Of a DNA stretch of 46,370 nucleotides, positions 26,920-29,950 are shown one piece after another. The stretch is taken from contig JAFMEZ010000010.1 in the NCBI GenBank assembly GCA_017856455.1, positions 1 through 46,370 on the forward strand, read 5' to 3'. The notes below the pieces were generated by a model. That model had not been told where the DNA came from, made no database searches, and saw only the letters and a list, made by a program, of their open reading frames with translations. The first letter of the stretch is position 1; each line of letters begins with the position of its first letter. The position numbers and the translations under genes were made by a program. Source of the stretch: Parafilimonas sp. GTDB taxonomy: Bacteria; Bacteroidota; Bacteroidia; Chitinophagales; Chitinophagaceae.

Positions 26920-27345
26920 ATGTCAACCATTCAATTTTTTTATCAAAAACGCCTCAATTCTTTCAGAAACAGAGAGAAACTGAAGCAATTTCTCATAAAA
27001 ACGGCCAAATCACATAAAAGAGGGGTTGATGAAATCAATATTATATTTTGCTCCGATCCCTATCTTTTAGAGATCAATAAAAAACATTTATCACACGATT
27101 ATTATACTGATATCATCACTTTCGATCTTTCACAAAAAGGCTCCCCATTACAGGCTGAAATTTACATCAGCATTGACCGTGTGAAGGACAATGCAAAATC
27201 TATTGGGACTTCCTTTAATCAAGAGCTTCACCGGGTAATATTTCACGGGATGCTTCATTTACTGGGATTGAAAGACAAATTACCGGCAGATCAAAAAAAG
27301 ATGAGAAAGGCAGAGGATGAGTTGCTTGGCAAGTATTTTAAATAA
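26920..27345 (+). CDS. ybeY: rRNA maturation endoribonuclease YbeY
   Basis: Metal-dependent RNase of UPF0054, used in 16S rRNA 3' maturation and ribosome quality control. The zinc-site region is HGMLHLLGLKDK (109-120): His109 and His113 are present, but the third position of the classic HGxLHLxGYDH motif is Asp119. SHDYYTDIITFDL (58-70) is a well-conserved strand-turn. The length is 141 aa. The stop overlaps the start of the CAP gene (TAATG, 27343-27347), inside which a parS-like site begins. Confidence 0.9.
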   Translation: MSTIQFFYQKRLNSFRNREKLKQFLIKTAKSHKRGVDEINIIFCSDPYLLEINKKHLSHDYYTDIITFDLSQKGSPLQAEIYISIDRVKDNAKSIGTSFNQELHRVIFHGMLHLLGLKDKLPADQKKMRKAEDELLGKYFK

Positions 27346-28007
27346 TGTTCCACGTGAAACATCTTGTTTTCATCTTATTATTTCCACTCTTATCCAGTGC
27401 ACAAGGAAGCTTTACTTTAAAGGATACGCCATTGATAGTTAAGCTGGAAGTAGACCAAACCATCAAAGCACATGTAGATAGAGAATTGATAAAGTCGGGA
27501 CTCTCAAATGAGGAGAGAGAGTTTTTCTATTGGGTCAATTATCTGAGAAAAAACCCTCCACAGTTCTATACAGATTGTATCCTTCCTTTTCTAAAACAAT
27601 TCCCTGAGGCCAATGGCAAAGAGGCAAAAAGCCTTCAAAAAGATCTTTTGTCATCTCCCAAACTAAATCTCTTGTCTTTTTCTGCTGCTGCTACAGATGC
27701 AGCAAAAATTCATTGTGCAGATTTGGCCCTGAAACAGAATAATATCGGACACAATAGTTCAGATGGAAAGAACTTCTCAACGAGAATGCGACTTGCAGGC
27801 ATTACCAAGTGTGCAGCAGAGAATATTTATACCGGTAAAAACGAGCCACTGCTTTCCCTCATTATGCTCTTGCTCGACTTAGGACTCGAAGTGCCGGGAC
27901 ACAGAAAGAATTTGTTGGCCCCATGGTATAATCTAATGGGACTCTCCATGCAAACCCATCGATCCATGAAAAGGATTGTTCTGGTACAAATTTTCTCCTG
28001 CTCCTGA
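27345..28007 (+). CDS. Exported CAP-domain (SCP/PR-1-like) protein
   Basis: The 220-aa protein has a signal peptide (MFHVKHLVFILLFPLLSSAQG) and a CAP domain toward the C-terminus, with the motifs HNSSDGKNFSTRM, CAAENIY and PGHRKNLL. The function of bacterial CAP proteins is mostly unknown; they are usually secreted. The first 16 bases after the A of the start codon form a parS-like site that encodes the signal-peptide n-region (MFHVKH). A second parS-like palindrome begins directly after the TGA. The gene is coupled to ybeY by a one-base overlap. The CAP-domain His/Glu residues look present, but the AENI tetrad His context is only partly conserved. Confidence 0.82.
   Translation: MFHVKHLVFILLFPLLSSAQGSFTLKDTPLIVKLEVDQTIKAHVDRELIKSGLSNEEREFFYWVNYLRKNPPQFYTDCILPFLKQFPEANGKEAKSLQKDLLSSPKLNLLSFSAAATDAAKIHCADLALKQNNIGHNSSDGKNFSTRMRLAGITKCAAENIYTGKNEPLLSLIMLLLDLGLEVPGHRKNLLAPWYNLMGLSMQTHRSMKRIVLVQIFSCS
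27346..27361. promoter_or_regulatory. parS-like ParB-binding site 1
   Basis: TGTTCCACGTGAAACA matches the bacterial chromosomal parS consensus TGTTnCACGTGAAACA at every defined base. It starts at the T of the CAP gene's ATG and ends inside codon 6. ParB would be expected to nucleate here for origin segregation. Confidence 0.8.
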
Positions 28008-28023
28008 TGTTCCACGTGGAACA
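28008..28023. promoter_or_regulatory. parS-like ParB-binding site 2
   Basis: TGTTCCACGTGGAACA is a perfect 16-bp palindrome, differing from the parS consensus only by G for A in the right half (the mirror of the n position). It begins at the base after the CAP gene's stop, 662 bp from site 1, and lies 58 bp upstream of mnmG. Confidence 0.75.
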
Positions 28024-28026
28024 CTT

Positions 28027-28067
28027 ACAGTTAACTGTTAACGGCAACTGTTAACTGCAAACTCCTG
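28027..28067. repeat. Heptad-phased ACTGNNA repeat
   Basis: Between parS site 2 and mnmG the sequence reads ACAGTTA, ACTGTTA, ACGGCA (one base short), ACTGTTA, ACTGCAA, ACTCCTG. The 7-bp phase parallels the different heptad array at 1687-1742. The core CAGTTAACTG (28028-28037) is a perfect palindrome. It sits just upstream of the mnmG -7 box. Confidence 0.6.
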
Positions 28068-28069
28068 TT

Positions 28070-28077
28070 TATCTTTG
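28070..28077 (+). promoter_or_regulatory. Candidate -7 box of mnmG (TATCTTTG)
   Basis: TATCTTTG matches TAnnTTTG and ends only 4 nt before the mnmG ATG. Transcription starting about 7 nt downstream of the box would begin at or beside the start codon, predicting a leaderless or near-leaderless mRNA. No TTTG is seen at -33. Confidence 0.5.
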
Positions 28078-28081
28078 CAAT

Positions 28082-29950
28082 ATGTTTCCAAAGTATGATG
28101 TGATCGTTGTGGGAGCTGGACATGCCGGCTCAGAGGCCGCCGCAGCCGCAGCCAATATGGGCAGCAAGGTTTTATTGGTGACCATGAACTTGCAGAACAT
28201 TGCCCAAATGAGTTGCAATCCCGCTATGGGAGGCATTGCAAAGGGGCAAATTGTACGTGAAATAGATGCTTTGGGAGGATATTCTGGAATTGTGACCGAT
28301 CAAACCATGATCCAGTTCAGAATGCTTAATCGGTCGAAGGGTCCTGCTATGTGGAGCCCAAGAGCCCAAAGTGACCGCATGTTGTTTTCTCAGCGTTGGA
28401 GGGAAAAATTGGAGGCAACACCAGGACTGGATTTTTATCAGGATATGGTGAAAGGGTTGTTGGTGAAAAATGGAGTCGTGAGAGGCGTTATCACAGGAAT
28501 GGGAAATGAGATTGAAGCCAAGGCTGTGGTACTTACAAATGGTACATTTTTAAATGGGATCATTCATATTGGAGAGAAAAATTTTGGTGGAGGAAGGATG
28601 GCAGAGCGAGCAGCGACGGGCATTACAGAGCAATTGGTAGCATTGGGATTTGAAAGTGATCGTCTGAAAACAGGCACACCGCCAAGGATTGATGGAAGGA
28701 GTTTGGATTATTCCAAGATGGAAGAGCAGAAAGGAGACGATGAAATAACTGGATTTTCATATTTGAATTTCGAGCGCATCAAACCCGAGCAGCAGAGAAG
28801 TTGTTGGGTTGCCTATACCAATGAGCTGGTGCACGATACACTTAAAACCGGATTCGATAGGAGTCCTATGTTCGCCGGCAGAATCGAAGGAACAGGTCCA
28901 AGGTATTGCCCAAGTATTGAAGACAAAATCAACCGCTTTGCTGAGCGCGACCGCCATCAGCTTTTTGTAGAGCCTGAAGGATGGAACACCGTGGAGATCT
29001 ATTTAAATGGATTTTCAACCTCTTTACCAGAAGATGTTCAGTATCAAGCACTTATAAAGATACCAGGATTTGAAAATGTGAGGGTATTCAGGCCGGGTTA
29101 TGCCATTGAATACGATTATTTTCCACCCCATCAGCTTCATTACTCATTGGAAACCAAGCAGTTACGTGGTTTATTTTTCGCCGGACAGATCAATGGAACT
29201 ACGGGTTACGAGGAAGCAGCTTGTCAGGGACTCATGGCGGGGATCAATGCACATAATTATGTGGTTGACAGGGAACCATTGGTTTTAAAAAGAAGTGAAG
29301 CATATATCGGTGTCTTGATTGATGATCTGATAACAAAAGGAACTGAAGAACCATATAGGATGTTTACATCAAGAGCAGAGTATCGAACATTGTTGCGACA
29401 AGACAATGCAGATTTGCGATTGACAACGATTGGTTATGATTTGGGATTGGCAAGTGAGGAAAGATTTCAAATGGTTCAAAAGAAAAAAGAAAACATTGAA
29501 ACGATCATAAAAAAATTCAATGAAGTTTCTGTAGATCCAATTGACATCAATTCATTTTTTGAAAACGTTGGATCAACACCGCTCTCACAAAAACAAAAAT
29601 TAGCACAGCTCGTATTACGTCCGGGTATTGGTGCAAAAGAAATGATTGATCATCATGATGGGTTGAAAAAAGATTTTTCTCATTATCATGAAGTTGAAAT
29701 TGAGCAGGCGGAAATACAAATGAAATATGCAGTGTACATAGAGAAGGAAAGAGAAATGGTGGAGCGCATGGGACAAATGGAAGATCTTGAAATCCCTGCC
29801 AGCTTTGACTTTTCAAGGGTTCAGGCCATCAGTGCTGAAGCAAGAGAGAAGCTTAAAAAAATACAGCCGAAAACACTTGGACAAGCATCACGTATTTCAG
29901 GAATCAATCCAAGTGATGTTCAAATTCTCATGGTATACATGGGCAGATAA
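28082..29950 (+). CDS. mnmG: tRNA uridine-5-carboxymethylaminomethyl modification enzyme MnmG (GidA)
   Basis: FAD enzyme that, with MnmE, installs the cmnm5 group on wobble uridine of several tRNAs. The dinucleotide motif GAGHAGSEAA (11-20) is at the N-terminus. Other blocks are MSCNPAMGGIAKGQIVREIDALGG, GRCNP-type FGGGRMAERAATG, and the GIDA C-terminal helical domain ending in GINPSDVQILMVYMGR. The length of 622 aa is full. It is classically origin-linked in many bacteria, consistent with the parS sites immediately upstream. The wobble uridine it modifies is also the substrate position of MnmH in this window. Confidence 0.97.
   Translation: MFPKYDVIVVGAGHAGSEAAAAAANMGSKVLLVTMNLQNIAQMSCNPAMGGIAKGQIVREIDALGGYSGIVTDQTMIQFRMLNRSKGPAMWSPRAQSDRMLFSQRWREKLEATPGLDFYQDMVKGLLVKNGVVRGVITGMGNEIEAKAVVLTNGTFLNGIIHIGEKNFGGGRMAERAATGITEQLVALGFESDRLKTGTPPRIDGRSLDYSKMEEQKGDDEITGFSYLNFERIKPEQQRSCWVAYTNELVHDTLKTGFDRSPMFAGRIEGTGPRYCPSIEDKINRFAERDRHQLFVEPEGWNTVEIYLNGFSTSLPEDVQYQALIKIPGFENVRVFRPGYAIEYDYFPPHQLHYSLETKQLRGLFFAGQINGTTGYEEAACQGLMAGINAHNYVVDREPLVLKRSEAYIGVLIDDLITKGTEEPYRMFTSRAEYRTLLRQDNADLRLTTIGYDLGLASEERFQMVQKKKENIETIIKKFNEVSVDPIDINSFFENVGSTPLSQKQKLAQLVLRPGIGAKEMIDHHDGLKKDFSHYHEVEIEQAEIQMKYAVYIEKEREMVERMGQMEDLEIPASFDFSRVQAISAEAREKLKKIQPKTLGQASRISGINPSDVQILMVYMGR

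Follow-up and report, generated by a model that had tools for sequence, protein, structure and literature searches.

The locus considered here raises the question of why a gene for a CAP-domain protein is enclosed, to the base, by two parS-like palindromes directly beside mnmG. The window analyzed is a stretch of 46,370 nucleotides from Parafilimonas sp., corresponding to one entire contig (G000:C38). Within this window, the endoribonuclease gene ybeY (26920..27345; an ORF with Pfam PF02130, 87.2 bits), the CAP-domain gene of 220 amino acids (27345..28007; Pfam CAP PF00188, AlphaFold2 model and Foldseek) and mnmG, also called gidA (28082..29950; Pfam GIDA PF01134, 538.7 bits), follow each other on the forward strand. 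Since ybeY ends at 27345, its TAA and the ATG of the CAP gene have one base in common. The first palindromic site, parS1 (TGTTCCACGTGAAACA, 27346..27361), starts with the second base of this ATG (27345-27347), overlapping the start codon and encoding residues 2-6 of the protein, while parS2 (TGTTCCACGTGGAACA, 28008..28023) starts with the very next base after the TGA (28005-28007). The spacing of both sites from start to start is 662 bp. The first-pass annotation had described the CAP gene as enclosed without a spare base, and a re-reading of both sites, the ATG and the TGA agrees with it throughout: site 1 matches the consensus TGTTNCACGTGNAACA at all defined bases with zero mismatches, as does site 2, the latter is a perfect 16-bp palindrome, and mnmG starts just beyond it. 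Downstream of parS2, mnmG has a -7-like promoter motif, TAnnTTTG, on the forward strand (TATCTTTG, 28070..28077). The same interval also harbors a GTTAAC-rich inverted repeat (28027-28060), which folds as a hairpin and is possibly a terminator or an origin element. RNA structure over site 1 does not go beyond shuffled sequences (z -0.42) and is weak over site 2 (z -1.80; 6/200 shuffles).

Identification of the two palindromes as parS is based on their rarity and on the partition proteins encoded in the same genome. At up to three mismatches to TGTTNCACGTGNAACA, 11 places are found in the window compared to 2.85 expected from shuffles, and only parS1 and parS2 match with zero mismatches. The genome itself is a fragmented MAG (1,940,313 bases searched, 102 contigs, 89% complete), in which these two sites are the only places at one mismatch or fewer, while a reversed control pattern gives no match in the same 1,940,313 bases. 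Hence, many similar palindromes scattered far from the origin, which had been named at first pass as the finding that would speak against ParB sites, are not seen in this genome, and the pair displays the parS-type features of 16-bp palindromes that are few and clustered, as far as a genome of this completeness covers them. Of 119 genomes, the own one among them, 78 contain at least one exact site and 41 contain none, and the control pattern occurs in three of the 119. The genome yields one ParB match, located beside a ParA-like ORF; the putative parB and parA are the ORFs at 1246-2166 and 2156-2971 of record L062, of which the second was named ParA by eye. This ParB matches Spo0J/ParB structures with a best E of 1.3e-54 (phmmer) and carries the CTP motif GERRWRAA. 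In a hand alignment using the numbering of PMC7383237, it exhibits the parS-type pair R173 and G201, both absolutely conserved in ParB orthologs according to the accessible part of that paper. N178 and R204 fit as well, with Tyr at 179 and Lys at 184, and the protein departs at 171 (Met) and 172 (Asp), where Lys and Ser are given as conserved contacts in the same part of the paper.

The linkage of such sites to mnmG extends far beyond the genus. Of 134 exact sites in 77 relatives, 117 are no more than 2.5 kb away from mnmG, and 71 of these genomes have such a site (the two sites of the own genome, the 78th, are excluded and one G020 site was added from reading its neighborhood). Among these 117 sites, 106 lie on the 5' side of mnmG, nine inside and two on the 3' side; the remaining 17 are found on contigs without a listed mnmG match, and four sites of G012 were scored as not near, though the mnmG start was found beside them. 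For 47 genomes from other families of the order, only site-mnmG distances were determined. A draw from the class, comprising 39 of 46 site-bearing genomes (three had been counted already and four were beyond the matches listed), gave 52 of 68 sites in 34 of the 39 genomes within 2.5 kb of mnmG among the matches listed, with 24 on the 5' side, one inside and 27 on the 3' side, again among the matches listed. Thus, parS is tied to mnmG well outside Chitinophagaceae. For seven family genomes, a search of the 6 kb before mnmG gave no ybeY, and in six of them (L127, L133, L139, L142, L148, L152) an exact parS is located within the mnmG coding sequence, in all cases at +380; the seventh, G041, is without it.

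As dnaA, parB and the window are each located on separate contigs in the fragmented own genome, nearness to the replication origin is carried over from relatives. In three single-contig relatives, the sampled GC skew switches sign at the locus, from minus to plus. The last value before, the first after and the next after it are -0.034, +0.004 and +0.037 in G062, and -0.055, -0.005 and +0.031 in G058, where one left-arm sample (1089 kb) is of opposite sign. The change is weak in G044 (-0.004, +0.013 and +0.018), which has no exact parS and one site with one mismatch. Taking the shorter way if these contigs are circles, the distance of the locus from dnaA is about 1.4 Mb in G062, 1.9 Mb in G058 and 1.8 Mb in G044, and that from parB about 0.7, 1.8 and 2.2 Mb, respectively. 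DnaA boxes show no excess in the window (3 TTATNCACA vs 2.76 expected). According to the part of PMC10197239 available, the origins of 12 gut species, two Bacteroidales among them, were assigned to the skew change nearest to a parS cluster, in agreement with read coverage, and an origin may lie apart from dnaA. By analogy, the parS locus is probably at or near the replication origin. Taken together, consensus, rarity, a ParAB pair with parS-type residues, mnmG linkage and the skew change in three relatives support, by inference, the earlier reading of the locus as a ParB-bound domain.

How the CAP gene came to lie exactly between the sites can be addressed by comparing the ybeY-mnmG region in relatives. 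Genus and family comprise 72 genomes (own included), of which 12 were left out due to an absent or truncated mnmG (G003, G005, G009, G015, G018, G021, G028, G029, G031, G033, G035 and G070; the CAP neighborhood of G070 was read separately as L055), and 60 stretches were fetched from the 59 others. A CAP homologue directly follows ybeY in 21 stretches, or 22 with the own one, and mnmG lies beyond it in 20, the exceptions being G036, which is divided between two contigs, and G039, which is cut. Any CAP match at E <= 0.001 is found in 36 of 119 genomes, 14 of which, G070 excepted, have it elsewhere or only weakly; at E <= 1e-30 there are 21 matches, counting the own gene, each of which sits after ybeY. 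The nearest CAP genes share 75-77% identity and stem from Chitinophagales and Chitinophagaceae MAGs. Allowing up to two mismatches, parS1 begins with the middle base of the first CAP codon in each of the 20 relatives counted. The distance between the CAP stop and parS2 amounts to -1 to +4 nt in 15 of 19 relatives, with other gaps in G026 (11 nt), G047 (32 nt), G014 (54 nt) and G056 (-30 nt). G054 was excluded from codon and offset counts due to its divergent N-terminus; its CAP copy is divergent, with an ATG 2 nt after parS rather than within it. In a further record, L227, the gene is bracketed likewise, each of the sites having two mismatches. Hence, the question posed at first pass, whether the CAP gene lies between the two sites in related genomes, can be answered with yes for close homologues after ybeY.

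The same sites are also found where the gene is absent. At up to two mismatches, parS is present in every ybeY-mnmG slot counted, both in the 18 with CAP and in the 27 without, the latter carrying one to nine parS-like sites each. These counts cover 18 of the 21 CAP relatives (G039, at a contig end, was excluded here as well as from trees and parS2 counts, G034, with a cut or shifted mnmG match, here and from later trees, and G036 from slot counts) and 27 of the 38 CAP-less stretches, ybeY being absent or cut in the other 11. The median distance from the ybeY stop to the first parS is 2 nt in CAP slots and 19 nt in CAP-less slots, and that from the last parS to mnmG is 56.5 and 61 nt, respectively. 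A decayed CAP gene was not recognized in the 38 CAP-less stretches using a slot-CAP profile (best E 0.078); their slots mainly contain short ORFs, with large ORFs in genomes in which ybeY does not adjoin mnmG. The bracket thus results from parS1 hugging ybeY and parS2 hugging mnmG, with CAP occupying the gap. Accounting for this anatomy, one parS would be kept just 3' of ybeY and another just 5' of the mnmG promoter, and the CAP gene would sit in the space between, having taken parS1 as its 5' end. By the general ParABS mechanism, ParB-CTP would load at both sites and slide onto adjacent DNA, where the loaded ParB would serve ParA and SMC. We consider it likely that the palindromes represent a chromosomal parS centromere at or near the origin, with CAP filling the ybeY-mnmG gap and using parS1 as its 5' end. 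In G043 and G055 (L125, L137), nine parS-like sites at up to two mismatches are spread across 0.9-1.4 kb from ybeY to mnmG, a stretch without long ORFs.

The enclosed protein itself exceeds the Pfam cut-off for the CAP domain PF00188 (30.2 vs 21.1 bits), and its AlphaFold2 model has a mean pLDDT of 88.8. A Foldseek search with this model returned four PDB matches at E <= 0.001, namely, an SCP-domain protein as top match (4ifa, E 3.6e-5), two snake proteins, which we take to be CRISPs, and an unrelated linker. With a TM of about 0.4, the fold match is partial; model and matches together place the protein in the CAP fold, and the sequence alone has no PDB match at E <= 1. It is probably secreted, as judged by eye from a hydrophobic stretch following its N-terminal FHVKH. 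Purifying selection is evident from a pN of 0.14 vs a pS of about 0.8 (own gene vs two nearest), and CAP evolves faster than mnmG.

Regarding expression, TAnnTTTG, presumably the Bacteroidota -7 element, is found in the 60 nt upstream of mnmG in 44 of 57 relatives, but ahead of CAP in only one of 20, compared to 30 of 1200 random 60-nt stretches. Hence, CAP appears to have no promoter motif of its own and is probably read through from ybeY. ParB control of CAP is possible, and the centromere might at the same time be a switch, in which ParB at parS1 and parS2 silences or times CAP, as the first-pass annotation had suggested for ParB spreading, and the bracket is kept for this reason. The placement of parS1 exactly at the CAP start in all 20 relatives counted would fit such a function, as would the lack of a promoter motif, due to which polymerase would have to cross parS1. 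Moreover, the accessible parts of two papers describe silencing of neighboring genes over kilobases by the ParBs of plasmids P1 and F (PMC7333895, PMC3909081) and, for overproduced Pseudomonas ParB in Escherichia coli, silencing of genes near a site likewise named parS2 (PMC3909081). KorB, a DNA-sliding clamp capable of distant repression, could serve as a model, but as far as covered by the accessible text of PMC11790492 it belongs to a plasmid system with the partner KorA. However, some of the silencing described in the parts available was observed upon overproduction, and Par proteins did not regulate the gidA and parA promoters of Pseudomonas according to one of these papers (PMC3909081). 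Furthermore, parS is similarly placed in all 27 CAP-less slots counted, so the sites need no CAP gene to persist; a parS at the ybeY stop automatically coincides with the start of any gene abutting ybeY; and ybeY-CAP has been retained without parS in G070. A bracket kept as a switch is therefore possible but rather unlikely. The more specific proposal, in which a secreted CAP protein obtains its start codon and the beginning of its signal sequence from parS, and occupancy of the whole parS-CAP-parS block by ParB would couple its synthesis to origin duplication or segregation, is decidedly doubtful.

Besides a ParB-bound domain, the first-pass annotation had suggested a transferable unit, that is, a mobile parS-CAP-parS cassette ended by the palindromes. 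Near-identical direct and inverted repeats of 17-18 bp at both ends would suit such an element, as would the patchy occurrence of CAP, which is present in 20 of 57 genomes and requires 11 changes on the mnmG tree. However, the same repeats occur without CAP in all 27 CAP-less slots counted, as well as inside mnmG in the six genomes mentioned above, all 21 close CAP matches follow ybeY, and the CAP tree mostly tracks the mnmG tree. For 19 genomes, both trees have nine of 16 splits in common, compared to a mean of 0.26 and a maximum of four after label shuffling, with seven CAP and seven mnmG splits not shared. Of five CAP splits with a bootstrap of at least 95, four are also found in the mnmG tree, and the fifth (G036+G037, 97) is not resolved there. 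Shuffling CAP presence gave a mean of about 16.8 changes, with one of 500 shuffles as low as 11. The best reading of CAP is that of an old resident, repeatedly lost, with the limitation that the change count cannot separate gain from loss; the gene appears to be mostly vertically inherited, and some horizontal events remain conceivable given the unshared splits and the 11 presence changes. In one scan of viral contigs no close CAP relative was found, and neither integrase nor transposase was noticed by eye among the window ORFs. The transferable unit thus finds no support, the cassette being very improbable, and the palindromes were rejected as cassette or transposon ends, since these ends occur without cargo and the cargo tree largely agrees with that of mnmG. 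In G070 (L055), CAP follows ybeY without any parS-like site at up to three mismatches, and mnmG was found neither in the genome nor downstream of CAP. This arrangement points to ybeY as the partner of CAP and to mnmG as that of parS, and ybeY may be CAP's older partner.

As the 5' end of the CAP gene, parS1 also writes its protein sequence, the N-terminus reading M-FHVKH. All 21 slot CAP genes considered, among them the own one but not G054, have CAC as codon 3 and GTG as codon 4, and 20 have AAA as codon 5, counts that do not represent independent events as the lineages are related. In the rest of the same genes, CAC accounts for 27% of His and GTG for 17% of Val codons. Conservation in 19 or more of the 20 rows is seen at 32 columns, and just two of these, CAC and GTG, which form the core of parS, are spelled with a single codon. 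Codon 1, in turn, varies (13 ATG, three ACG, three TAG, one TGG and one CTG), and the start codon that all 21 genes share is the GTG at codon 4 inside parS, which in the own gene lies on the forward strand within the CACGTG core of parS1 (27354..27356) as an alternative CAP start. Of the eight genes without ATG at codon 1, six offer no usable in-frame start before this GTG; in the other two, G001 and G056, an in-frame ATG lies upstream. We infer that translation starts inside parS in some species; in the own species either ATG or GTG may serve. The same bases would consequently act as ParB site, as start codon, either the ATG at the edge of the site or the GTG in its core, and as the first residues of a likely signal sequence. 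That FHVKH is instead retained merely for the protein, as a signal sequence, with the palindromes being coding or intergenic coincidence, is hardly credible: residues 2-5 indeed do not vary in any of the 20 rows, and a signal sequence would be consistent with a Lys so close to the N-terminus, but the single spelling of CAC and GTG is unlike the other 30 conserved columns, the non-coding site 2 bears the same word, and this word is found just twice in 1.94 Mb.

A parS centromere enclosing a CAP gene, with one site doubling as gene start, can be regarded as real and conserved judging from the sequences compared. It shares the 16-bp consensus and a ParB family with R173/G201 with Spo0J-parS of Bacillus subtilis and ParB-parS of Caulobacter, and resembles chromosomal ParABS in having one to few clustered sites, in relatives probably on the chromosome's origin side. 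Unlike in those two systems, the cluster is found at ybeY-mnmG, which in the three single-contig relatives is remote from dnaA as well as parB, and one of the sites forms the start of a protein gene. The gut-bacterial origins of PMC10197239 were likewise placed at the skew change next to a parS cluster, with dnaA not necessarily at the same place; its available part does not mention mnmG, ybeY or a bracketed gene. A parS within a protein-coding gene is also described for recF of Pseudomonas aeruginosa in the accessible text of PMC3909081; in comparison, the CAP site extends over the start codon and includes the start codon that the family shares. With a Pfam score above cut-off and mostly SCP/CAP proteins among its Foldseek matches, the enclosed gene belongs to the CAP/SCP superfamily, here with a member inside a centromere. 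Thus, the kind of element, a chromosomal parS, is known, while the variant is new as far as the literature searched shows: none of the titles and abstract beginnings covered concerned a ybeY-CAP-mnmG parS arrangement, with the standard survey (Livny 2007) outside this coverage and a prior report possible.

The locus offers a natural, conserved case of a putative ParB loading site inseparable from a gene start, so that whether chromosomal ParB clamps disturb transcription becomes testable at one gene. It also shows a DNA-binding word written into coding sequence. Additionally, parS at mnmG can serve as a sequence landmark in Bacteroidia genomes, in which dnaA is a poor marker, indicating the centromere and probably also the origin. 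In one class-level relative (L228, G148:C24:11500-13825), 99-bp tandem units with seven exact parS span 1703-2324 and reach the contig end, with more copies beside mnmG on C40 and at two other contig ends (L229-L231); this array looks like an amplified centromere which broke the assembly.
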